Source: Deltaproteobacteria bacterium (GTDB taxonomy: Bacteria > Myxococcota_A > UBA796 > UBA9615). Taken from it: DNA of 35,852 bases. Of the stretch, positions 3,725-30,516 are shown piece by piece; positions within the stretch are counted from its first letter, which is position 1, and the number at the start of each line of letters is the position of its first letter. A program made the position numbers and the translations under genes. The stretch lies in assembly GCA_023954745.1 (NCBI GenBank), contig JAGSHC010000035.1, forward strand, positions 1 to 35,852, in the 5' to 3' direction. The notes beneath the pieces are model-generated. The model saw only the letters and a program-made list of their open reading frames with translations. It did not search any database and was not told the origin of the DNA.

Positions 3725-5086
3725 ATGGCCGACTCCCTCCCCATTGGACTGCGCTCCCGTCGTGTCTTGACGGCCGATGGCCCCCGCGACGCAGTCGTCG
3801 AGTTGCTCGATGGACGGATCACGGCGGTCCACGACCCCGAGGACGCGCCTCCGCAGCTCGCCACCGAAGACCTGGGCGAGCTCGTGCTGATGGCGGGCCT
3901 TGTCGACACGCACGTACACATCAACGATCCCGGCCGCACCGCTTGGGAGGGCTTCGCCACGGCCACTCGCGCCGCCGCCGCCGGAGGGGTGACCACCCTG
4001 GTGGACATGCCCCTCAACTCCTCGCCGGTGACCACGACGCGCTCGGCCCTCGACGCCAAGCTCCGCACCGCCACTGACGAGCCCCTCACCGTGGACGTGG
4101 GCTTCTGGGGGGGCGCGGTCCCGGGCAACTCCGAGCAGCTCGGGGACCTCGCCCGCGGCGGCGTGCTCGGCGCGAAGGCCTTCTTGTGCCACTCGGGCAT
4201 CGACGAGTTCCCTGCATCCGACGAGGAGAGCCTGGTGGCCTCGGGGCGGGCCCTGTCCAACCACGACCGCCCGCTCCTGCTGCACGCCGAGCTCGAGCGG
4301 GAGAGCGACCTCGACCGCGCCGCCCTCGCCGAGCTGCCCCTGGACGACTACCGCATCTGGCTGGAGAGCCGTCCGCCGTCGTTCGAGGAGGCCGCCGTCC
4401 TGCGGGCCATCGACGTCGCGCGGCGCACCGGCTCCCGCGTGCACGTGGTGCATCTCTCCGCCGGCAGCGCGGTGCCGTTGCTGCGCCGCGCCAAGGAAGA
4501 GGGCCTCCCCGTCACCGTCGAGACATGCCCGCACTATCTGGTGCTGACCGCCGAGGAGGTCGGCGCCGGGCAGACCCAGTTCAAGTGCGCGCCGCCCATC
4601 CGCGAGGCCAGCAACCGGGACCTCCTGTGGGACGGCCTGCGCGACGGGACCATCGACTTCATCGTGAGCGACCACTCCCCGTGCACGGCGGACCTCAAGT
4701 GCGGAGACACGGGGGACTTCGGCGCCGCTTGGGGCGGCATCGCCACCTTGGGACTCACCCTGCCGGTCGTGTGGACCGAGGCGCGGCGCCGCGGCTTCGG
4801 GCTCGACGACGTGGCCCGCTGGCTCGGAGCGGGACCGGCTGCTTTCGCGGGACTCTCGGATCGCGGCACCCTCCGGGCCGGCGCGCGCGCCGACCTCGTG
4901 GCCTGGGACCCCGACGCGAGTTGGGTGTGCACCCCGTCGGCGGCGGAGTTCCGCAACAAGGTTTCCCCCTGGTTCGGCCGCTCATTGCAGGGCCGAACCG
5001 TGACGACGTGGCTCGGGGGGAGCAGGATCTGGCACGACGGCGCCGCCGTCGGCGCACCGCAGGGCATCGCCCTCCTGGAGACTTGA
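3725..5086 (+). CDS. allB: Allantoinase
   Basis: A 453-residue cyclic amidohydrolase, the usual length for the family. It hydrolyses (S)-allantoin to allantoate in the cytoplasm. The dinuclear metal site is complete: His63 and His65 in DTHVHINDPG, a carboxylatable Lys151 in GAKAFLCHSG, His187 in LLLHAE, His243 in VHVVHLSAG and Asp316 in IVSDHSPC. The segments GFWGGAVPGN and KCAPPIR are typical of allantoinases and argue against dihydropyrimidinase or dihydroorotase. It is the first gene of the purine cluster; the next gene starts one base after its stop. No clear Shine-Dalgarno sequence precedes the ATG. The 91-base divergent gap upstream contains a TTGACG hexamer at 3694-3699, but no convincing -10 box lies at the right distance. 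Confidence 0.95.
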   Translation: MADSLPIGLRSRRVLTADGPRDAVVELLDGRITAVHDPEDAPPQLATEDLGELVLMAGLVDTHVHINDPGRTAWEGFATATRAAAAGGVTTLVDMPLNSSPVTTTRSALDAKLRTATDEPLTVDVGFWGGAVPGNSEQLGDLARGGVLGAKAFLCHSGIDEFPASDEESLVASGRALSNHDRPLLLHAELERESDLDRAALAELPLDDYRIWLESRPPSFEEAAVLRAIDVARRTGSRVHVVHLSAGSAVPLLRRAKEEGLPVTVETCPHYLVLTAEEVGAGQTQFKCAPPIREASNRDLLWDGLRDGTIDFIVSDHSPCTADLKCGDTGDFGAAWGGIATLGLTLPVVWTEARRRGFGLDDVARWLGAGPAAFAGLSDRGTLRAGARADLVAWDPDASWVCTPSAAEFRNKVSPWFGRSLQGRTVTTWLGGSRIWHDGAAVGAPQGIALLET

Positions 5087-5087
5087 A

Positions 5088-6605
5088 ATGAGCGTGGATC
5101 TGGCTGCATTCGCTGACTGCACAGAGCTGGCGAGCGAGTCGGTGGGGGGCGCCGTGCTCGCCGCCAGCGACGACTTCTTCGCCGAGAAGGAGAACCTGCT
5201 CAAGGTGGGCGAGGCCGAGTTCGACCCTCACGCCTACACCGAGCGGGGCAAGCTCATGGATGGCTGGGAGTCCCGGCGCAAGCGCGTGTCCGGCAACGAC
5301 TGGGCCATCGTGCGCCTCGGAGTCCCCGGGCTCGTGCGGGGCCTGGACATCGACACCAGCTGGTTCCTCGGCAACCACCCGCCGTTCTCGCGGCTGGAAG
5401 GCATCGTCGCGGATCCTGACGCCGACGCGGTCCAGCTCGCCAACCGCAGCGACTGGTTCGAGGTCCTGCCCCAGGTCCCCCTCAAGTCCGGCAGCCACAA
5501 CCTCTTCGCAGCCTCGCAGGTCCAGCACTGCACCCACCTCCGGCTGTGGATGCTGCCCGACGGCGGCATCGCCCGCCTGCGCGTCTACGGGGACCCCGCA
5601 CCGCGACTCGCCGGCGACGAGCTGCTCGATCTGGCGGCTCTGGTGCACGGCGCCCGCGCCCTCGCCGCCTCCGACATGTTCTTCGGAAACAAGGACCACC
5701 TCATCCAGCCCGGTCGAGCCGAGAACATGGGGGGCGGATGGGAGACCCGACGCCGCCGCGACACCGGCCACGATTGGATCGTCGTGCAGTTGGCCGGCCG
5801 CGGGACCCTGGCCCGGCTGGTGCTGGACACCCACCACTTCAAGGGCAACTTCCCCGACCGCTGCTCGGTGCAGGGGCTGGACGCGGCGGATGCCGAGCCG
5901 TTCCGCATCGAGCGCCGCGACGACTGGGTGGACGTGCTGCCCGAGACGAAGATGGCCGCGGACACCGCCCACAGCTTCGAGGCCGGAGAGCTGCAAAGCG
6001 TCGGGCCCTTCACCCATCTGCGCCTCAAGGTGCACCCCTGCGGGGGGGTCTCGCGCTTGCGGGCAATGGGCTCCCTCGTCGCCCCGCAGGCGAGCGGCCC
6101 GGCAGACCTCCTCAATGGGCTCGACGAGGCCGCTGCGCACAGCGCGCTGATGCTCTGCTGCGGGTCTGAGGAGTGGGCGACGCGCATGACCGCCGCCCGC
6201 CCCTTCGCCGACGACGTCTCCCTGATGCTCGCGGCGGACGAGGTGTGGTGGAACCTGCCGGAGAGCGAGTGGCTGGCTGCCTTTGCCCACCACCCACGCA
6301 TCGGCGAGGACCCGGAGCGTCTGCGGCGTCGGTTTGGCAGCACCGCGGAGTGGGCGGGTGGAGAGCAGGCCGGAGTCGCCGGGGCTGCGGAGCAGACCCT
6401 GTCGTCCCTGGTCCAGGGCAACCACGACTACGAAGCCCGGTACGGCCACGTCTTCCTCATCTGCGCCACGGGTCTCTCGGCCCACCAGATGTTGAGCGCG
6501 CTTCAGCGCCGACTCCCCAACGACCCCGCCCGCGAGCGCCTCGTCGCTGCTGGCGAGCAGGCCAAGATCACCCGCCTGCGCCTGCACAAGCTGGACACCC
6601 CATGA
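5088..6605 (+). CDS. Fused allantoicase and OHCU decarboxylase
   Basis: A 505-residue fusion of two purine-catabolism enzymes. Residues about 10-330 are an allantoicase (allantoate to ureidoglycolate plus urea) made of two similar halves. Each half carries the family pattern: FFAEKENLL, DGWESRRKR and DTSWFLGNHPP in the first, and FFGNKDHLI, GGWETRRRR and DTHHFKGNFPD in the second. Residues about 337-503 are a 2-oxo-4-hydroxy-4-carboxy-5-ureidoimidazoline decarboxylase, shown by HHPRIGE (401-407) with its catalytic-type histidine and by the helix YGHVFLICATG with the later RLPNDPARE and EQAKITRLRL. That domain makes (S)-allantoin. The fused activities are not consecutive, since allantoinase (the preceding gene) acts between them. 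The stop overlaps the next start as ATGA. Confidence 0.92.
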   Translation: MSVDLAAFADCTELASESVGGAVLAASDDFFAEKENLLKVGEAEFDPHAYTERGKLMDGWESRRKRVSGNDWAIVRLGVPGLVRGLDIDTSWFLGNHPPFSRLEGIVADPDADAVQLANRSDWFEVLPQVPLKSGSHNLFAASQVQHCTHLRLWMLPDGGIARLRVYGDPAPRLAGDELLDLAALVHGARALAASDMFFGNKDHLIQPGRAENMGGGWETRRRRDTGHDWIVVQLAGRGTLARLVLDTHHFKGNFPDRCSVQGLDAADAEPFRIERRDDWVDVLPETKMAADTAHSFEAGELQSVGPFTHLRLKVHPCGGVSRLRAMGSLVAPQASGPADLLNGLDEAAAHSALMLCCGSEEWATRMTAARPFADDVSLMLAADEVWWNLPESEWLAAFAHHPRIGEDPERLRRRFGSTAEWAGGEQAGVAGAAEQTLSSLVQGNHDYEARYGHVFLICATGLSAHQMLSALQRRLPNDPARERLVAAGEQAKITRLRLHKLDTP

Positions 6606-6934
6606 GCACCATCTCCACCCACGTCCTCGACACCGCCCGTGGCCGCCCCGCTGCCGGCATGGTCATCCAGCTGGACCGCCTCGGCGCGGCCGCCACCCAC
6701 GTCAACGACGGAGTCACTGACCGCGACGGTCGCATCGGGGACCTCGGCGTCGATGTGGTCCCCGGGACGTACAAGGTCACCTTCGGGACCGGCGACTACC
6801 TGTCGCGGCACGGCGTGACGGAGGCGTTCTATCCGGTGGTCGAGATCGTCTTCCACATCTACGAGGACGACGAGCACTACCACATCCCCCTCCTGCTCAG
6901 CCCCTACGGCTACTCCACGTACCGCGGCAGCTGA
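6602..6934 (+). CDS. hiuH: 5-hydroxyisourate hydrolase (transthyretin-like)
   Basis: A 110-residue enzyme, the full normal length, starting at the ATG that overlaps the upstream stop. It opens 5-hydroxyisourate to OHCU, the step between the urate hydroxylase PuuD and the OHCU decarboxylase domain encoded just upstream. Family marks are STHVLDTARGRPA at the N-terminus with catalytic-type His7, TDRDGRI near residue 40 with active-site arginines, YHIPLLLSPYGYSTY with His94, and the C-terminal YRGS signature that separates HIU hydrolases from transthyretins. There is no signal peptide, so it should act in the cytoplasm. A gap of 78 bases separates it from the next gene. Confidence 0.96.
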   Translation: MSTISTHVLDTARGRPAAGMVIQLDRLGAAATHVNDGVTDRDGRIGDLGVDVVPGTYKVTFGTGDYLSRHGVTEAFYPVVEIVFHIYEDDEHYHIPLLLSPYGYSTYRGS

Positions 6935-7012: not shown

Positions 7013-7756
7013 ATGACCCGCGTACTTCTCGCCTGCCTCGCCGTGCTGCTGGTGGCCGCCCCGGCCTCCGCCTCGGAGTCCAGCATGCTTGCGGCCGACG
7101 CCTCCGCGCGCACCCTCCACCTCGTGCCGCTGCCGGACCTGCCAGACAGGCGCATGCCGGCTGCGAACATGGACGAGGCCGCGATGAAGACGGCCCGGGG
7201 ACTCAACCCGTTCCTCAAGGTCGCCCCCCTCGCCATCGGCATCCCTCTGGGGGTGGCAGGGATCTCCATCCTCGCCAGCGTGCCCATCGCCCTCTCCGCC
7301 AATGACCCCTTCGCCGCGGCCTCGATGTACAACGGCGGGGTCGGGATCATGGGGGGCGCCTTCGCCGCCGTGCTGACCTTCAACATCCTCGCCCGCACCC
7401 TGCGCTTCTTCCTGGACGCCGGGGACTGGCAGAAGGACATCGCCTTCCTCGCCGCGGGCTCGGGACTCGCGATCAGCGGGTACGCGCTCGCCAGCATCGC
7501 GGGGCGCTTCGCCCTCATCGGCACATGGCCGGACGGCGCCATCGCCGCCGGCCTCGTCGGGGGCGCCACCTTGTGGGGCGTGGGCCTCGCTCTGCTGATG
7601 ATCGACACACTCCGCACTACCTGGAAGGACAACGACCCGGTCATCACGCTGCGGGCCGGCGACCAGGGCATGCAGTTCGCTGGCATCTGGGCCGCGCCGG
7701 TCGACCACGGCCCGGGCGAGGTGGCGGCCGCTGCGGGGGTCGTGCTCCGTTGGTAG
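7013..7756 (+). CDS. Predicted membrane protein of unknown function in the purine cluster
   Basis: A 247-residue protein with a ribosome site (GGAGG, four bases before the ATG). Residues 1-20 form a signal peptide ending in ASA. After a polar stretch there are about four hydrophobic segments (about 66-92, 104-127, 142-163 and 171-200), then a polar C-terminal part ending in a strand-like VVLRW. I recognise no family. It sits between hiuH and puuD on the same strand and may be co-transcribed with them, but a role in urate oxidation or uptake is only inference. The 78-base gap before it is large enough to hold a separate promoter. Confidence 0.7.
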   Translation: MTRVLLACLAVLLVAAPASASESSMLAADASARTLHLVPLPDLPDRRMPAANMDEAAMKTARGLNPFLKVAPLAIGIPLGVAGISILASVPIALSANDPFAAASMYNGGVGIMGGAFAAVLTFNILARTLRFFLDAGDWQKDIAFLAAGSGLAISGYALASIAGRFALIGTWPDGAIAAGLVGGATLWGVGLALLMIDTLRTTWKDNDPVITLRAGDQGMQFAGIWAAPVDHGPGEVAAAAGVVLRW

Positions 7757-7781: not shown

Positions 7782-8552
7782 ATGAGCGACACCCCAGAGC
7801 CCCCTTCGGTCGTGCAAGCCCGGGAGAGCGTCGAGCTCTTCCAGAAGCGGCTGACCGTCTACGTCACCGGAGTCTTGTTCTTCATCTTCAGCATCGTGGG
7901 CGCCGCGGTGGCTGACGCGCCGAAGTCGGCGCTCTTCGCGACGCTGGCGCTGTACGTGGTCTGGGCCCTGGGCGGCGTGTTCGCCATGCGGGCCACAAAG
8001 CAGAAGGACCACCAGCACGTCATCAAGGAGTGGGAGTCCCGCGAGCTGCGCGAGGAGTTCGCCAAGTTCGACGTGGCCGTGCAGTCCACGGACGACCCCC
8101 GGGTCGCGGCGGCCGCCGCCATGGCGGACCGCATCCGGGCCCTCGACAGCTCTCCCCGAGAGACGGACGACATGGTGACTCGCTTGGAGGCGCGGCTCCG
8201 CTCCCTCGTCACCGACCAGAACGCTGCGGCGGCGGCGGTGAAGGCGCTGGAAGCGGCCGGCGCGGGCTCGACGGGCACCGGCCGACTCCTCGAAGCGTCG
8301 GAGCGACTCGATGAGGAGATCTCCCGCATCGTCGAGGGCATGTCGGAGCTGTACGCCTCCCTGCTCGAGGCGGGATCCCGGGCTCAGAACGCCGAGGATC
8401 TGGCCGACGTGATGGCCTGGCTCGAAGCTGAAGCAGAGATCGCGAGGGCGCAGGAGCGGGAGGCCATTCGTCCCGCCGGCGGTCACCGCTCCACGAACGC
8501 AGAGCTCGCCCAGACCGCGAGCAAACCACGCCCCCAGACGGCGAAGGAGTAG
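7782..8552 (+). CDS. Membrane-anchored coiled-coil protein, unknown function
   Basis: A 256-residue protein. Two closely spaced transmembrane segments (about 24-44 and 48-68) are followed by a long, mainly helical, charged and Ala/Glu-rich domain (about 75-235) with heptad-like spacing, for example in LEARLRSLVTDQNAAAAAVKALE. The short loop suggests that both ends face the cytoplasm. I recognise no family. It ends three bases before the puuD start, and the puuD ribosome site lies in its last codons, so the two genes are almost certainly co-transcribed and translationally coupled. It could scaffold or modulate PuuD, but no motif shows this. Confidence 0.75.
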   Translation: MSDTPEPPSVVQARESVELFQKRLTVYVTGVLFFIFSIVGAAVADAPKSALFATLALYVVWALGGVFAMRATKQKDHQHVIKEWESRELREEFAKFDVAVQSTDDPRVAAAAAMADRIRALDSSPRETDDMVTRLEARLRSLVTDQNAAAAAVKALEAAGAGSTGTGRLLEASERLDEEISRIVEGMSELYASLLEAGSRAQNAEDLADVMAWLEAEAEIARAQEREAIRPAGGHRSTNAELAQTASKPRPQTAKE

Positions 8553-8555
8553 ACG

Positions 8556-9737
8556 ATGGTTGCGCATCTGTACGAGTGGTTGGCCTTGGCGATTCGCTGG
8601 CTCCACGTCATCGCCGGAATCGCCTGGATCGGCGACTCCTTCTACTTCATGTGGCTCGACGCGAGCCTCAAGCGCGACGAGTCCACCCCCGACGGCATCA
8701 AGGGGGAGTCGTGGTCGGTGCACGGTGGCGGCTTCTATCGCGTCATCAAGTTCAGCAACGCCCCCGACGCGATGCCCGAGACCCTCCACTGGTTCAAGTG
8801 GCAGGCCTACACCACGTGGCTCTCGGGCTTCGCGTTGCTGGCGGTCGTGTACTGGCTGCAAGCGAAGGCGTTCATGGTCGACGCCGGAGGCCTCGCCCCC
8901 GGGGTAGCGGTGGGCGTCGGACTGGGGACCCTCGTGCTGGGCTGGGGCGTCTACACCGGGCTATGCAAGAGCCCTCTTGGCAAGAGCCCCGTCGCCCTCG
9001 CGTTCGTCCTCGGGGGAGTCCTTGCGGGCACGGCCTACGGACTCGGCGAGCTGCTGTCGGCCCGGGCTGCCTACATCCACGTGGGGGCCATGATCGGCAC
9101 CTGGATGGCCGGCAACGTCGCGATGATCATCATCCCGAACCAGCGCAAGATCGTGGCCGCACTGCTCGACGGCAAGACCCCGGACCCGAAGTACGGCGCG
9201 GAGAGCAAGCTCCGCAGCACGCACAACAACTACCTGACCCTGCCAGTCCTGTTCGTGATGATCAGCAACCACTACCCCATGACCTACGGCCACGAGCACG
9301 CCTGGCTCGTCCTGGTGGCGCTGTTCGGCATCGGGGCCCTGACCCGGGTCTTCTTCAACTTCCGCAACGCGGGCCGCGTGCTCGGCTGGGTGCTCCCGGT
9401 GGTGGCCGTTGCCTACATCGGTCTGGCCTTCGTCACCGCGCCTCCCGCGCCGGAGAAGGTGGAGGGCGTGACGTCCGCCACCTGGAGCGACGTGCAGCCC
9501 ATCATCACGGTGCACTGCACGCCCTGCCACAGCGCAAACCCAACCCACGCCGTGTTCCGCACCGCCCCCAACGGGGTGATGTACGACACGCCGGAGCAGG
9601 TCGCCAGCAAGTCGGCCCTCATCAAGGTGCGGGCTGTGGACACCGCCACGATGCCCCTCGCGAACGAGACGAACATGACCGCCGAAGAGCGGGCCAAGCT
9701 CGGGGTGTGGATCGAGGCGGGGTCGCCGATTCCGTGA
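8556..9737 (+). CDS. puuD: Membrane-bound urate hydroxylase with cytochrome c domain
   Basis: A 393-residue integral membrane protein that oxidises urate to 5-hydroxyisourate and passes electrons to the respiratory chain rather than to oxygen directly. The opening motifs WLHVIAGIAWIGDSFYFMWLD and ESWSVHGGGFYR are the hallmarks of the PuuD (Urate_ox_N) family. About eight hydrophobic helices fill residues 8-297. The C-terminal domain (about 305-393) is a c-type cytochrome with the heme motif CTPCH at 321-325 and a probable distal ligand Met366 in TATMPLAN. It supplies the first step of the pathway whose later enzymes lie upstream on the same strand. Its stop is followed by the convergent amylase gene 67 bases away. 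Confidence 0.94.
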   Translation: MVAHLYEWLALAIRWLHVIAGIAWIGDSFYFMWLDASLKRDESTPDGIKGESWSVHGGGFYRVIKFSNAPDAMPETLHWFKWQAYTTWLSGFALLAVVYWLQAKAFMVDAGGLAPGVAVGVGLGTLVLGWGVYTGLCKSPLGKSPVALAFVLGGVLAGTAYGLGELLSARAAYIHVGAMIGTWMAGNVAMIIIPNQRKIVAALLDGKTPDPKYGAESKLRSTHNNYLTLPVLFVMISNHYPMTYGHEHAWLVLVALFGIGALTRVFFNFRNAGRVLGWVLPVVAVAYIGLAFVTAPPAPEKVEGVTSATWSDVQPIITVHCTPCHSANPTHAVFRTAPNGVMYDTPEQVASKSALIKVRAVDTATMPLANETNMTAEERAKLGVWIEAGSPIP

Positions 9738-9804: not shown

Positions 9805-12114
9805 CTACTGCGGCAGCAGAATCGCGTACTCCCAGGGATTCAGCGACAGCTCGAAGCTCTGGCTGCCCACGGTGACCACCCGGTCGGGGTGGATGGCGTC
9901 CACGAGGGTCATCCCGTCGAGGGCATTGATGGTGGCGCCGGTGGGGATGGTCACCACCCGCGGCGTGTCCGCCTTGTTCATGGCCACCACCGCCGCGTCG
10001 GCCCCGTCGACCCGCGCGTAGACCAACAAGTCGTCGTCCACCCACAGCTGGGTCCGGTCGCCGCGACGCAGGGCCTTGCTCGATGCTCGCGCCTGTCCGA
10101 TGGCCCGCACGCGGCTCAGCAGCTCAGTCTGGTTCCCGGACAGGTAGGGGTCGAAGCTCATGAAGCGCCGGTTGTCCGGGTCGCCAGCCCCGGCGAGGCC
10201 GATCTCGTCGCCGTAGTAGATGAGGGGAAGGCCGGGCTGGGTCAGGGTGAAGGCGAACGCCATCGACTGCTTGTTGATGATGTCCCACTGGGTGACGTCG
10301 CTGCCGCCACCGGCCATCCAGTCCTCGGTGCCGCCGAAGGGGTCCCCCGCGTTGCCCGCCGCGTCCGTGGCGAAGCGCAGGATGTCGTGGTTGCCCAGGA
10401 ACGGCGACATCAGCCCGTAGGCGTCGCCATAGGCCGCTTGCCCCGTCGCCACCGTGCCCTCGAGGCCGTTGAAGCTGCCGCCGTGGGCGAAGGCGTTGCG
10501 GATGGACCAGTAGAGCGGGAAGTCGAACTGCGCATCGAGCTCGTCCTCGGACACGTAGTCCATGATGAGCCCGTGGCCGTCCCCGCCGGTGAACGTCTCC
10601 CCCACGGTGTAGACCTTCGCCCCGCCGCCAGCCTCGATGTCCTCCCGCAGGCGGCGACGCAAGGTGCGCATGATGACGTGGTCCATGTGCTTGGCGGCAT
10701 CCACCCGCACGCCGTCCACGTCGAAGCGCCGGATGAGCTCGACGGTGTCGTCCACCACGCGCTCCAGCACGTAGTGGTTCTTGTAGTTCAGGTCCGGCAG
10801 GTAGGGCATGAACCAGCAGCCGATGGGGTTCTCCTCCCACCCGCAGCCGGCCTCCCCGCACACGCACCCGTCGCCGAACCACTCCGGGTGCTCGGAGCGA
10901 TAGACGTGGTCCTCGTGCACATGGTTGAGCACGAGGTCGAACAGCACCCGAATCCCTCGCGCGTGGGCCTCGGTGATGAGCTCGTTGAGGCGGTCCTCGC
11001 TGTCGGCCCATACGTCCCCCAGCTTGCCCTCGATGGCGAAGGGGTCCGTGGGCCAGTACCCATGAAAGCCGCTGAAGTTGTTGAAGCCGTCGGCGGCGAT
11101 GTAGGGGCTGTCGGGGTTCTCGTACACCGGGGTGAGCCACAGCACGTTCGCGCCGAGGGCCTCGAAGTAGTCCTCCTCCATGGCGTCGAGCACGCCGAGG
11201 AAGTCGCCGCCCATGTAGTTGGCGATCTCCGCGGTGTCGGCCACCGGGGATGCGGACCCCTCTTCGCCGAAGTCACCGTTGCGGAAGCGGTCGACGAAGG
11301 CGAAGTAGATGAGGCCGTCCTCCCACTGGAAGGGCTCCTCCTCGACCCACAGCGGCACGAAGATGGGCTTCTCCGAGGCGCGACCCGCCGTGTCGGACGC
11401 CCAGGCGCGCAGGGAGTGCTTGCCTGGGGGCAGCGGGCCCGCCGACACCGTGATGGCCCCGGTGGCGGGGTCTGCTCCGACGGTGACGAGGCCGTTGGCG
11501 CTGGACGCTTCGCGGCCCAGCTCCACCACCACCGAGGCGGGGTCCAAGGGCGCGTCGTCCACCGCCCGCGCGAAGCGCAGGGTGGCGGCGATGGAGCCAT
11601 CGGGGGACGCGACCGCGCTGGCGACTTGCAAGAGCGGCTGCTCGCAGTCGCCCACATACAGCGCGCGGTTCTCGGTGCCGTCGAGCCACTTCGCGTAGGC
11701 GCTGGCTGGCGGCGCGCCTTCCCACTCCCCGTTGATGAGGAACTTGTGGGCGTAGTGCCCCGCGGCCAGGGCACCGACGGCGGCGAACCAGGTGCCGTCG
11801 CCGTTGTCGGTCATGGCGGCCGGCGTCCACCCGTTGAACTCCCCGGCGACCTCGACGCTGCCGGGGCTCCCGCCAGGGGTGTGGGTGATGGTGACATCGC
11901 ACTCGCGCTGCGAGACGGTGGGGTTGTCCGTGGCGTCGTCGTCGTCGCCGACCGAGTCATCGTCGTCCGTGGGGGCGGGCGGGAGACCGATGTCGTCGTC
12001 GGGCTCTCCGCAGGTGAGGCCCACACAGACGCAGCCCGAGGTGCTCAACAGCGCCACTGCGGCGATGGCGCTCGCCAACGGTGCGAACAGAGCGACGAGG
12101 TCCGAGCGCTTCAT
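9805..12114 (-). CDS. GH13 alpha-amylase-family lipoprotein
   Basis: A 769-residue secreted glucanase acting on alpha-1,4-glucans or related oligosaccharides. The signal ends in a lipobox, STSGC, with Cys28 as the anchor. An acidic linker with DDDDSVGDDDD (about 50-62) follows. Then come a CBM48/AMPK-like starch-binding fold (about 72-155, GEFNGW), a second beta domain (about 160-255) and the catalytic barrel (about 262-660). The four conserved GH13 regions are present: DLVLNHV (393-399), GVRVDAAKH with nucleophile Asp472, VGETF with acid/base Glu506, and FLGNHD with Asp577. A beta-sandwich domain C ends the protein. Exact specificity (alpha-amylase, neopullulanase or cyclomaltodextrinase) cannot be told. 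Its ribosome site GGAGGAG lies in the end of the TrmB-type gene, so the two form an operon. Confidence 0.93.
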   Translation of the reverse strand: MKRSDLVALFAPLASAIAAVALLSTSGCVCVGLTCGEPDDDIGLPPAPTDDDDSVGDDDDATDNPTVSQRECDVTITHTPGGSPGSVEVAGEFNGWTPAAMTDNGDGTWFAAVGALAAGHYAHKFLINGEWEGAPPASAYAKWLDGTENRALYVGDCEQPLLQVASAVASPDGSIAATLRFARAVDDAPLDPASVVVELGREASSANGLVTVGADPATGAITVSAGPLPPGKHSLRAWASDTAGRASEKPIFVPLWVEEEPFQWEDGLIYFAFVDRFRNGDFGEEGSASPVADTAEIANYMGGDFLGVLDAMEEDYFEALGANVLWLTPVYENPDSPYIAADGFNNFSGFHGYWPTDPFAIEGKLGDVWADSEDRLNELITEAHARGIRVLFDLVLNHVHEDHVYRSEHPEWFGDGCVCGEAGCGWEENPIGCWFMPYLPDLNYKNHYVLERVVDDTVELIRRFDVDGVRVDAAKHMDHVIMRTLRRRLREDIEAGGGAKVYTVGETFTGGDGHGLIMDYVSEDELDAQFDFPLYWSIRNAFAHGGSFNGLEGTVATGQAAYGDAYGLMSPFLGNHDILRFATDAAGNAGDPFGGTEDWMAGGGSDVTQWDIINKQSMAFAFTLTQPGLPLIYYGDEIGLAGAGDPDNRRFMSFDPYLSGNQTELLSRVRAIGQARASSKALRRGDRTQLWVDDDLLVYARVDGADAAVVAMNKADTPRVVTIPTGATINALDGMTLVDAIHPDRVVTVGSQSFELSLNPWEYAILLPQ

Positions 12115-12118
12115 CGGG

Positions 12119-12919
12119 CTACTCCTCCGCCGCCAGGTGGGGCCGCATCATCGGCGCGACATCCGCGGCCGGGTCTCGGCCCTGGGCGCGGGCGAGCAGC
12201 GTGATGTCGAGGATGATGTGGTTGGTGGCGACGTCCACGAGGGACGGGTTGGTGGTCACCACGGCGTGGTTGTCCGCATCCGGGTCCGCGCCCCCCATCA
12301 ACGCAGTCTTTCGATCGACGACCGCGAGGATCTTGTGGGACCAGGTGGCCTTGTCGGCGTCGTCGGTGACGCTGTCGGTCCAGCACGAGAAGCCGGGCGG
12401 GCAGTCGGTGACCGCGTCCACGGAGTGCACGACCTGGTGGAGGCCTCGGTCCGCCACGGACTCCAGGGCAGGACGCAGAGCGTCCAGCTCTCGACTCCAC
12501 AGGGACAGATAGATGCTCTGTTCTGCGCTCCGCAGCATCTGGTCCAGGCGCGCGAGGACCTGCTCGTACCGAGAGAGCGTCCAGATGGGCTCGGGCAGCG
12601 CGCGGATGGGGATGCGCTTCAAGGCAGTGTCGAGCTTGTCGTAGGTGGAGTTCGACTCGCTCCTCAGGCCCGTGACGAAGCGCTCCGGCGGCGTGGGCAC
12701 GTAGCGGGCGGGCTTGTCGCCGGTAGAGAAGGCGGCGCCGGTGTTCTCGAGCTTGCGGAGGACGCTGTAGACCGCGCTGCGCGGGATGCCGGACCGGGCG
12801 GCCACTTCGTATCCCGTCATGCCGCCGTCCTCGTCGGACTCGAGCAAGCTGACGTACGCAAGGGATTCGTTCCGGGTGAGGCCGGCGGCGACGAGGTGGC
12901 TTACGATCTCTTCGTGCAC
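12119..12919 (-). CDS. TrmB-family transcriptional regulator of sugar genes
   Basis: A 266-residue regulator starting at a GTG with a GGAG site seven bases upstream. Residues about 5-75 form a winged helix-turn-helix (GYEVAARSGIPRSAVYSVLRKLENTG) of the TrmB type. After a short coiled linker, residues about 110-260 resemble the phospholipase D-like sugar-sensing domain of TrmB proteins (SIYLSLWSRELDALRPALE). TrmB proteins mostly control maltose, trehalose or other glucan genes. The directly downstream GH13 gene, four bases away, fits that role. A near-perfect palindrome lies in its promoter region and could mediate autoregulation. Confidence 0.87.
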   Translation of the reverse strand: MHEEIVSHLVAAGLTRNESLAYVSLLESDEDGGMTGYEVAARSGIPRSAVYSVLRKLENTGAAFSTGDKPARYVPTPPERFVTGLRSESNSTYDKLDTALKRIPIRALPEPIWTLSRYEQVLARLDQMLRSAEQSIYLSLWSRELDALRPALESVADRGLHQVVHSVDAVTDCPPGFSCWTDSVTDDADKATWSHKILAVVDRKTALMGGADPDADNHAVVTTNPSLVDVATNHIILDITLLARAQGRDPAADVAPMMRPHLAAEE

Positions 12920-27331: not shown

Positions 27332-29245
27332 CTAGGGCGCCATCTGGATGTCGTCGACGTAGAACGTGCCGGTGCCGCCGCTCGCTCCATCGACGCCGAA
27401 GTACGGGAAGATGGAGAGCTTGTCGTACGTGTTGCCGGCGGCAAACCCTTGCCCGTTCGGGAACGGGGCGGACAGGTCAAAGGTCACGGTCTGCCAGGTG
27501 CTGGCGGTTCCGGTGAAGGTGGCCTGCTTCTCGATGAAGATGCCAGCGTTGGTGCTGTCCTCCACCTTGAGCAGGAAGTCGATGTTCGAGACGGGCGACC
27601 AGACATCCACGGTCATCTCGAGGTCGGTGGCAGTCAGCGGGAGCGCGGCGATGGAGTCGAGGGCTCCTCCCGTCGAGATCGTCACTCCAGCCCACGTGGG
27701 GGACGAAGCCACCTTGTCGAGCTGGGCGACCATGTTGCTGGAGTCCGTCGGGTCCACGACCGCCGCGCCCGATGCGTCGCCGAAGCCCACGAAGGAGTAG
27801 GTGGTCGAGCTGTCGTCAAACGTGATCGGGACCCCCGTAGCCACGACCGCGGCCGGGCAGGCGGTGGAGTACATCGTGCCGAGGAACCAGACGTCATCGA
27901 CGTAGTAGGTCTTGTCGACTCCGCCCGCGTCGGCGCCGGAGGTGCCGAAGTTGGGGAAGATCGAGATGCGGTCGTAGGTGACCGTGGGATCGAACGTCCC
28001 GCCGGTCGCCGCCGAGTAGTCGATGGTCAGGGTCTCCCAGTTCGACGCCGCCGACACGGTGCCCTGAGCTTCAGCGTACTGGGCGCCATTGCCGCTGTTC
28101 TCGATCTTGATCATGAACGGAACCGCAGGGTCCGGTGACCAGACATCGATGCTCAGCTCGGTCTCTGTCGCCGTGAAGGGCATCACGGCCACGGTGTCGC
28201 CTGCGCAGGCGGACATCGTCACGCCGGCCCAGGTCTCAGCCGCTGCGCCCTTGCCGAGTTCGGCGACCATGTTGGTCGCGTCCGTGGGATCGACCACCGC
28301 CGAGCCTCCAGCGCCACCGAAGCCGGTGAAGGTCGGGGCCACGCCTTCGAAGTCGAAGACCACGGTGTCGCCGCCGCCAGCGCTGTCGTCGTCGTCACCC
28401 GCGCTGTCGTCGTCGTCACCCGCGCTGTCGTCGTCGTCACCAGCCGCCGGACAGTCCGTCGAGTACACCGTGCCGAGGAACCAGACGTCATCGACGTAGT
28501 AGTTCTTGTCGACCCCACCTGCGTCCGCGCCAGAGGTGCCGAAGTTGGGGAAGATGGAGATGCGGTCGTAGGTGACCGCGGGGTCGAACGTGCCGCCCGT
28601 CGCAGCCGAGTAGTCGACCGTCAAGGTCTCCCAGGCCGACGCTGCCGACACGGTGCCCTGCGCTTCGGCGAACTGGCTTCCGTCAGCGCTGTTCTCGATC
28701 TTCACCAGGAACGGCACCGCGGCATCTGGCGACCAGGCGTCGATGGAGAGCGAGGTCTCGGTGGCCGTAAACGGCATCACTGCGACGGTGTCTCCCTCGC
28801 AGGCCGACATCGTGACTCCGGCCCAGGTCTCCGCGGCTGCGCCCTTGCCGATCTCGGCGACCATGTTGGAGGAGTCGGTTGGGTCGACCACGGCCGATGC
28901 GCCGGCGCCACCGAATCCGGTGAAGGTCGGGGCGTCACCCTCGAAGTCGAAGATCACCGTGTCAGTCAGGGGCCCAGTGGCGTCGTCGTCGTCTCCGCCG
29001 GAGTCGTCGTCGTCACCCGTGGCGTCGTCGTCGTCGCCCGTCGCGTCGTCGTCGTCACCCGTGGCGTCATCGTCGTCGCCCGTCGCGTCATCGTCGTCGC
29101 CCGTCGCGTCGTCGTCGTCGTCGATGGCGGTGCCATCGTCGTCCGCGCCGTCACCGGGGCAGCCGACACCGAACACGCCGAACATCATCAACGCGACAAA
29201 CAGCCGCATCGTCATCTGAAGGCTCGAGGCCTGGGGAGTGCGCAT
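27332..29245 (-). CDS. Triple-domain putative glucan-binding surface lipoprotein
   Basis: A 637-residue lipoprotein. The ATG at 29245 has AGGAG six bases upstream; other in-frame ATGs lack a site. The signal ends in FGVGC (Cys29). Residues about 41-93 are an acidic linker of DDDDATG units. Three homologous beta-sandwich-like domains follow (about 95-265, 293-463 and 472-637), the first two nearly identical and joined by a second linker of three DDDDSAG units. Each has the outline VVDPTDSSNMVAELGKG, WAGVT, WETLTVDYS, YDRISIFPNFG and YYVDDVWF. This outline resembles non-catalytic domains found next to GH16 enzymes in marine glucan-degrading loci. It is probably the main capture protein for polymer at the cell surface. 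Binding is inferred, not shown. Confidence 0.82.
   Translation of the reverse strand: MRTPQASSLQMTMRLFVALMMFGVFGVGCPGDGADDDGTAIDDDDDATGDDDDATGDDDDATGDDDDATGDDDDATGDDDDSGGDDDDATGPLTDTVIFDFEGDAPTFTGFGGAGASAVVDPTDSSNMVAEIGKGAAAETWAGVTMSACEGDTVAVMPFTATETSLSIDAWSPDAAVPFLVKIENSADGSQFAEAQGTVSAASAWETLTVDYSAATGGTFDPAVTYDRISIFPNFGTSGADAGGVDKNYYVDDVWFLGTVYSTDCPAAGDDDDSAGDDDDSAGDDDDSAGGGDTVVFDFEGVAPTFTGFGGAGGSAVVDPTDATNMVAELGKGAAAETWAGVTMSACAGDTVAVMPFTATETELSIDVWSPDPAVPFMIKIENSGNGAQYAEAQGTVSAASNWETLTIDYSAATGGTFDPTVTYDRISIFPNFGTSGADAGGVDKTYYVDDVWFLGTMYSTACPAAVVATGVPITFDDSSTTYSFVGFGDASGAAVVDPTDSSNMVAQLDKVASSPTWAGVTISTGGALDSIAALPLTATDLEMTVDVWSPVSNIDFLLKVEDSTNAGIFIEKQATFTGTASTWQTVTFDLSAPFPNGQGFAAGNTYDKLSIFPYFGVDGASGGTGTFYVDDIQMAP
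27857..28963 (-). repeat. Tandem domain duplication inside the lipoprotein gene
   Basis: Two copies of about 513 bases (28451-28963 and 27857-28369) encode domains 1 and 2 of the lipoprotein. They are nearly identical in protein and very similar in DNA; for example, both contain GAGGTGCCGAAGTTGGGGAA in the same place. Differences are mostly at third codon positions. The third domain (27332 to about 27830) is clearly related but much more diverged. This points to an older duplication followed by a recent one or by gene conversion. Confidence 0.85.
28380..28442 (-). repeat. Three 21-base units encoding DDDDSAG
   Basis: Three direct repeats of a 21-base unit, identical except at the last bases, encode three DDDDSAG linker units between domains 1 and 2 of the lipoprotein. 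Such exact repetition is prone to length change by slippage or recombination. Confidence 0.85.
28970..29122 (-). repeat. GDDDDATG linker repeats next to the lipid anchor
   Basis: About seven imperfect 21-base units encode DDDDATG or DDDDSGG directly after the lipobox region of the lipoprotein. The coding strand alternates GAC runs with GCGACG or GCCACG. The same linker style occurs in the amylase, in the small lipoprotein at 16413-17087 and at the right end of the window. Confidence 0.85.
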
Positions 29246-29259
29246 GGAAATCTCCTGGG

Positions 29260-30516
29260 TCATGCGCCGCCGGGCAGTGCCACAGCGGGGTGGTTGAAGT
29301 GGGGACGCGAGTCGGGACGACCTGCGAAGAGGGAAGGGTCGGCGAGGCATGCTTCGAGGACCTGGGTGGCGGCTCCGGTGACGACCGCGGCTTCCTTCAG
29401 CTCAGAGACCACGACCTCCGTCGCTGCAAAGGAGCGGCCCAGCGTGCGCTGGGCGAGGGTCTTCTCCATGGGACGCAGCAGAAGGTCGTCCGCGAGCACG
29501 GGAAGGCTGCCCCCGAGCACGACGCGGGCGGGGTTGAGCAGGTTGACGAGGTTGGCGACCGCCGTGCCCAGGTAGGCGCCCGCCTCCGCGAGCACCTCGC
29601 GGGCCACGGCGTCGTCCGCGCGGGCGGCCATGGCGATGGCCGCGGGCGTCGGCTCCACTCGCGCCAGGACCGACGGCGAGTCGTCGTCCAGGCGCGCCCG
29701 CACCTCCCGGGTGAGAGAACCCGAGCCGATCATCGCCTCGAGACAACCATTGAGACCACAGCGGCACTTCGGCCCCCGAGGATCGATGGCGGTGTGCCCG
29801 ATCTCGCCTGCGATGCCTGCGGAGCCGCGAAAGAGCCGGCCGTCGATGACCAGACCCGCGCCGACCCCCGTGGCCACCTTGATGTAGGCCATGTCGCCGC
29901 TGCGCTGGCCCGCCCCCCACCAGTACTCAGCCAGAGCACCGACGTTGGCGTCGTTGTCGATCCACACCGGCAGTCCCGAGAAGCCGCGGACCCGCGAGAG
30001 CACCGGAACTCCCTCCCAGGCCGGGAGGATGCGCGCCGAGAGCTCGTCGGGGTTCTTGGGGTCGAGGGGCGAGGGAACCGAGAGGCCCACCCCCACCACG
30101 ATGCGGTCCATCTTGAAGGCGGAGGCCATCGACGCGGACAGCAGGCGGTCCACGAGGTCGAGGGTGCCGTGGGGGTCCTCCTCGACGGGGTACGCCATCC
30201 GGTCGGAGCGGAGGAGCTTGCCCGCGGCGTCCATGAGCGCGATGCGGACGTGTGACGCGCCGAGGTCGACTCCAAGGAAGGCGAAGCGGTCCGTAGCGAA
30301 GCGCAACACCACGGGGGGCCGGCCTCCCTTCGAGCGCGCCACATGGGAGATGACGATCAGCCCCTGGTCCAGGAGGTCCTGGACGATGCTCCCCACCGTG
30401 GATGGAGCAAGGCCGATCTTGCGCGACAGCGAGGCCCGGGACACCTCGCCGGCCTCCCAGATCGTGCGCAGGACCTTCGTCCGATTGTCTTCGCGGGTTC
30501 CGCCATCCTGACTCAT
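29260..30516 (-). CDS. ROK-family transcriptional repressor
   Basis: A 418-residue regulator. I chose the ATG at 30516; translation further upstream would run through the AT-rich promoter island. Residues about 10-75 form a MarR-like winged helix (VSRASLSRKIGLAPSTVGSIVQDLLDQGLI). Residues about 80-400 are a ROK sugar-kinase-like domain with FLGVDLGASHVRIALMD as phosphate-binding motif, WIDNDANVGALAE, GEIGHTA, and the zinc motif CRCGLNGCLEA. The zinc motif and helix-turn-helix indicate a repressor of the NagC/Mlc/XylR type rather than a simple kinase. It is first gene of the glucan operon and diverges from the GH17 gene, so it probably controls both directions and senses glucose or a laminari-oligosaccharide. 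Confidence 0.93.
   Translation of the reverse strand: MSQDGGTREDNRTKVLRTIWEAGEVSRASLSRKIGLAPSTVGSIVQDLLDQGLIVISHVARSKGGRPPVVLRFATDRFAFLGVDLGASHVRIALMDAAGKLLRSDRMAYPVEEDPHGTLDLVDRLLSASMASAFKMDRIVVGVGLSVPSPLDPKNPDELSARILPAWEGVPVLSRVRGFSGLPVWIDNDANVGALAEYWWGAGQRSGDMAYIKVATGVGAGLVIDGRLFRGSAGIAGEIGHTAIDPRGPKCRCGLNGCLEAMIGSGSLTREVRARLDDDSPSVLARVEPTPAAIAMAARADDAVAREVLAEAGAYLGTAVANLVNLLNPARVVLGGSLPVLADDLLLRPMEKTLAQRTLGRSFAATEVVVSELKEAAVVTGAATQVLEACLADPSLFAGRPDSRPHFNHPAVALPGGA

Follow-up and report, generated by a model that had tools for sequence, protein, structure and literature searches.

The forward-strand open reading frame at positions 5088–6605 of the window (the whole stretch of DNA that was analysed, 35,852 nucleotides long, from contig JAGSHC010000035.1 of a Deltaproteobacteria bacterium) begins with an ATG, ends with a TGA and encodes a 505-residue protein in which an allantoicase domain is followed by an OHCU decarboxylase domain. 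This fusion (alc-uraD) is genuine, both of its domains are intact and it is fairly widespread; a curated protein family model already covers its architecture. We consider it probable that the protein is a bifunctional enzyme of the ureide pathway, with two independent and intact active sites, that arose by the merging of neighbouring genes.

A two-domain gene within a urate-breakdown block

An earlier reading of this DNA from its sequence only had described allantoicase and OHCU decarboxylase domains in a single frame, and matches from Pfam, NCBIfam and the PDB agree with that description (Table 1). Pfam recognizes the Allantoicase repeat in two stretches (E 7.8e-91; PF03561, 302.3 bits against a cut-off of 27) and OHCU_decarbox at residues 343–499 (E 1.4e-40; PF09349, 139.8 bits against a cut-off of 24). 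The corresponding NCBIfam models, TIGR02961 (allantoicase, residues 12–328) and TIGR03180 (UraD_2, residues 342–502), score 392.7 bits against a cut-off of 277.9 and 174.5 bits against a cut-off of 139.4, respectively. Searches by sequence against the PDB matched residues 14–328 to yeast allantoicase (1sg3/1o59) and residues 355–502 to a plant OHCU decarboxylase (2q37); OHCU decarboxylase structures from plant, Klebsiella and zebrafish resemble the C-terminal domain both by sequence and by predicted fold. Foldseek matches to coagulation factor and neuropilin domains were also obtained, and were taken to reflect a shared beta-sandwich fold only.

Table 1. Genes and domains of the urate-breakdown block, in window coordinates.
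Feature	Position	Strand	Evidence
allB, allantoinase	3725..5086	+	TIGR03178, 507.5 bits vs cut-off 357.85
alc-uraD fusion gene, allantoicase / OHCU decarboxylase	5088..6605	+	Pfam, NCBIfam and PDB matches in both domains; single copy
Allantoicase domain, residues 12–328, two Allantoicase repeats	5121..6071	+	TIGR02961; 1sg3/1o59 by sequence and fold
Short linker, residues 329–341	6072..6110	+	Gap between domain matches; pLDDT dip
OHCU decarboxylase domain, residues 342–502	6111..6593	+	TIGR03180; invariant residues; 2q37, 3o7h, 2o70
hiuH, 5-hydroxyisourate hydrolase	6602..6934	+	TIGR02962, 127.5 bits vs cut-off 87.45
PuuD-type membrane urate oxidase	8556..9737	+	Pfam Urate_ox_N, 410.8 bits

An AlphaFold2 model of the fusion protein, computed from a 29-sequence input, has a mean pLDDT of 89.8 and a pTM of 0.65, with a dip in confidence (mean pLDDT 71) over linker residues 331–340. 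The model is consistent with two firm domains whose relative placement is unfixed, and with a hinge rather than a rigid interface between them.

Conservation was assessed in an alignment of both domains from 158 loci, from which 7 near-duplicates had been removed. Loci lacking any uraD hit were excluded, as were the duplicate locus L001 and the plasmid loci L171–L173. The OHCU decarboxylase domain of the fusion keeps His402 and Glu426, which are present in all 158 rows, and Arg498, which is present in 157; this histidine, glutamate and arginine, which have catalytic roles in published structures, also align with 2q37. In the allantoicase domain the near-invariant positions G54-K55, D58-G59-W60-E61, P157/G159-G160, G217-W218-E219 and G319-G320 are all kept, and a second alignment, of 29 fused proteins, displays the same residue conservation. 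The sequence-only reading had allowed that one of the domains might lack essential residues; this is not so in the comparison with 2q37 or in either the 158-row or the 29-protein alignment. At the level of sequence, both fused domains are complete and retain their near-invariant residues.

The genome, 7.13 Mb in size and listed as 100% complete, contains no other copy of either activity: allantoicase and OHCU decarboxylase are each present once, both in the fusion gene. The same single frame is found, at 64–65% identity, in G246 and G256, which belong to the same genus and family and were assembled independently, and the fusion is therefore not an assembly artefact. An antisense open reading frame of 610 residues overlaps the fusion gene. 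Because long chance open reading frames of this kind occur in G+C-rich DNA, the evidence for the fusion is homology rather than reading frame length.

The order of steps in urate breakdown is PuuD, HiuH, UraD, AllB and Alc. The two fused domains thus represent steps 3 (UraD) and 5 (Alc), and the separate AllB carries out step 4, just as the sequence-only reading had proposed in placing allantoinase between the two fused activities; its further observation that the allantoinase gene lies one base upstream is also correct, the allB stop ending one base before the ATG of the fusion gene. At the other end, the hiuH start overlaps the fusion TGA by four bases (ATGA). The PuuD-type urate oxidase encoded further downstream carries a CxxCH haem motif (CTPCH) close to its C-terminus. 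PMC4562309 describes PuuD as a membrane cytochrome c urate oxidase, and gives half-lives of 7.2 min for HIU and 9.6 min for OHCU. Two forward-strand frames in the interval between hiuH and puuD (7013–7756 and 7782–8552) were without a Pfam match over cut-off, and may encode membrane components of this block. Matches to an AllA-type ureidoglycolate lyase (PF04115) and to urease alpha (PF00449) were absent from the whole genome, despite its listed completeness of 100%. Allantoicase itself may act on ureidoglycolate, as one of the titles in the reference list of PMC4016543 states.

Beyond this block, positions 9805–33242 contain a GH13 alpha-amylase, GH1, GH16 and GH17 proteins, a family-5 solute-binding protein, an MFS sugar transporter and a ROK regulator, and are likely a region for the use of beta-1,3-glucan and alpha-glucan. 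A TrmB-type regulator is found at 12119–12919. The reverse strand at 27332–29350 encodes a secreted-looking protein of 672 residues that has no Pfam match and in which repeated acidic linkers of the DDDDATG type separate similar domains.

Occurrence among relatives and comparison with described enzymes

We sampled 377 genomes of the window's phylum, inferred to be Myxococcota, of which 118 gave a match; by hand count, about 73 of these 118 carry the fusion as a full single frame (beginning at residue 12 or earlier and extending to at least residue 500). One of the 73 (G372) has a TGA inside the matched stretch, and its locus (L012/L140) is one open frame with both domains. Within the window's class the full-length fusion was found in 38 of 41 matching genomes (again a hand count of the phylum sample); the remaining three (G283, G299 and G310) gave partial or weak matches, with no separate gene pair seen. 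Outside the phylum, 25 of 199 Acidobacteriota genomes match, with a full, stop-free single frame in three (G377, G424 and G513), and 11 of 296 Bacteroidota genomes match, with no unbroken fusion. An alc-uraD match in Acidobacteriota (G383:C1:126206-127675) contains a single TAG, and is apparently one stop codon from fusion.

Further fused cases came from Cloacimonadota (L041 and L045) and Balneolota (L008), among the best 80 of 267 relatives in a scan of GTDB species genomes, the ranking of which favours fused or in-frame pairs. None of 126 matching plasmid records had 80% or more of the query covered in one place. Allantoicase is the first domain in all 96 fused loci (duplicates included), as judged by best domain hit. 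A reversed domain order, considered for loci such as L024, L083 and L098, was excluded on the same basis.

The same domain order is found in the curated model NF010371 (PRK13797.1; 521 positions, named ‘allantoicase’), to which residues 3–502 of the fusion align at positions 7–517. The window protein scores 510.6 bits against this model, below its curated cut-off of 814; none of the 20 genomes in a sample of relatives exceeded that cut-off, and all 29 fused proteins scanned matched the model at E ≤ 0.001. The sequence-only reading had raised the possibility that this architecture is already widely described. That is correct insofar as NF010371 spans both domains and fused genes occur commonly across several phyla; a paper describing it, however, was not found in a literature search conducted mostly outside subscription journals, which is weak evidence that the fusion is unpublished.

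Several known systems resemble the fusion in part. A second NCBIfam model, NF010373 (PRK13799.1), has an N-terminal ‘unknown domain’ to which the OHCU decarboxylase domain, taken by itself, aligns at E 4.5e-5, and was matched by 26 of the 29 fused proteins (best E 1.1e-14); it differs in that the partner is an N-carbamoyl-L-amino acid hydrolase rather than allantoicase. Relatives of the N-carbamoyl-L-amino acid hydrolases act on allantoate. In plant TTL (allantoin synthase), OHCU decarboxylase is likewise fused to another enzyme of the ureide pathway, HIU hydrolase, but the partner there catalyses a consecutive step and OHCU decarboxylase is N-terminal; both activities have been shown for the full-length Arabidopsis protein (PMC2834698). 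Dal2,3,3 of Cryptococcus neoformans joins allantoicase to a pathway enzyme, ureidoglycolate hydrolase, and differs from alc-uraD in linking consecutive steps, in its partner and in its occurrence in Basidiomycota (PMC3646786). Finally, ArnA (dehydrogenase–formyltransferase) fuses non-consecutive steps with a separate ArnB acting between them, as described in PMC12650200, and alc-uraD is similar in that its intermediate step, AllB, is encoded by a separate gene. The proteins and pathway are unrelated, and ArnA therefore serves as a precedent only.

Gene order and the number of fusion events

The 158 aligned loci comprise 89 fused and 69 split cases, and in both the order is mostly allB-alc-uraD-hiuH. 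The alc and uraD sequences are adjacent on the same strand in 151 of the 158, and hence in 62 of the 69 split loci. Among 28 split pairs from the phylum sample (a number that includes L111, a duplicate of L051), alc and uraD overlap by four bases in 20, by the rule chosen for the uraD start, and the alc stop codon is TGA in 27. Loss of a stop codon as the usual route to fusion was rejected, as none of the 28 phylum pairs is in frame. Considering all split pairs, 17 of 63 are in frame, and all 17 come from the GTDB scan, whose ranking favours in-frame pairs.

We propose that two neighbouring and usually overlapping genes within an allB-alc-uraD-hiuH series would have merged in frame, that merger of an overlapping alc/uraD pair would have needed a small indel at the overlap, and that merging would have occurred, or been reversed, several times. 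Non-consecutive steps would be fused simply because gene order places alc beside uraD. In the resulting protein the C-terminal domain would convert OHCU to (S)-allantoin (step 3), the separate AllB would convert allantoin to allantoate (step 4), and the N-terminal domain would then convert allantoate to ureidoglycolate and urea (step 5). Both enzyme activities of the fusion protein are predicted from its homology and conserved residues, and allantoin and allantoate would presumably diffuse freely through the AllB step, with no complex required.

The number of events was examined in unrooted trees (quick trees and IQ-TREE runs) of the 158-row set and of a 75-row subset. Parsimony indicates six changes between fused and split labels, both in the 158-row tree and in the free 75-row trees. 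A single clade of all 41 fused rows among the 75 was rejected (AU p 1.3e-6), as was a constraint joining the Balneolota row alone to the main fused group (AU p 1.3e-4). Placing the 38 main fused rows, which are mostly from Myxococcota and Acidobacteriota, in one clade was not clearly rejected, with p values of 0.10 and 0.011 in short constrained searches. Because the trees are unrooted, gains are not separable from losses.

Fusion is distributed unevenly over the boundaries of the operon. Fusion into one frame was found for 89 of 151 adjacent pairs at the alc/uraD boundary, for none of 118 at the allB/alc boundary and for 3 of 141 at the uraD/hiuH boundary, counts that are not independent, since a small number of events accounts for many of the fused rows and some of the loci were obtained by searching with a fused protein. 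When only the phylum sample is considered (83 loci), the last two boundaries contain zero fusions and one fusion, respectively. In the three uraD/hiuH cases (L075, L079 and L125) a single open frame encodes both OHCU decarboxylase and HIU hydrolase, with allantoicase encoded separately nearby, a TTL-like arrangement in bacteria. Adjacency alone leaves the boundary bias and the near-fixation of the fusion in the class unexplained, and so some benefit or structural tolerance seems to be needed. We regard these patterns as a hint, rather than proof, of a benefit of, or a structural tolerance for, alc/uraD linkage.

Possible reasons for retention of the fusion

One possible reason for keeping the fusion is that it would ensure equal dosage of its two activities, or their co-translation, in which case physical coupling would play no part. 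Split relatives apparently couple translation through the four-base overlaps described above (20 of 28 pairs), and the fusion would represent the extreme of the same coupling. The allB and hiuH genes, however, are packed just as tightly against the fusion gene, with a one-base gap and a four-base overlap, yet are almost never fused to their neighbours, and we consider this explanation unlikely. Rather doubtful, in our judgment, is the suggestion that alc-uraD was gained independently several times and kept since linkage across the AllB step is useful, the products forming a loose ArnA-like unit round AllB.

A stronger form of physical coupling, in which the fusion is kept as one particle with AllB docking and with allantoin and allantoate passed along it in the manner of ArnA, appears quite improbable to us. 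The recurrence of fusion at the alc/uraD boundary and the failure of the fused proteins to form one clade would fit such a particle, and PMC12650200 provides a precedent, with the two ArnA domains catalysing steps 2 and 4 and ArnB step 3. An amphibian allantoinase–allantoicase complex is also cited in PMC3646786. On the other hand, the authors of the ArnA study could not themselves isolate an ArnA–ArnB complex (PMC12650200), and the domain arrangement of the fusion is not fixed in its AlphaFold2 model.

The position of allB also argues against such a particle. In the phylum sample the gene immediately upstream is allB at 38 of 49 fused loci and at 21 of 27 split ones (Fisher P = 1), and across all loci with enough room the corresponding figures are 58 of 78 and 51 of 65 (P = 0.69). 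AllB therefore adjoins the pair equally often with or without fusion, indicating that the fusion has no special tie to AllB, and the complex envisaged in the sequence-only reading, with allantoinase held between the two domains, is not borne out by this comparison. Finally, the idea that one domain has degenerated into a mere scaffold can be virtually dismissed: nothing was found in its favour, both domains retain the near-invariant residues, and the genome has no further gene from which either activity could come.

The preferred reading, of a bifunctional enzyme formed by the merging of neighbouring genes, bears on how such fusions are interpreted and annotated. A fusion of non-consecutive steps can arise simply from the order of genes in an operon, and for that reason a fusion of this type offers little evidence of substrate channelling. 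Because the curated NCBI model covering both domains bears the name of allantoicase alone, OHCU decarboxylase may seem to be missing from the annotation of genomes that encode it in this form. The uneven rate of fusion at neighbouring boundaries of one operon would offer a clean case in which to weigh selection against drift.
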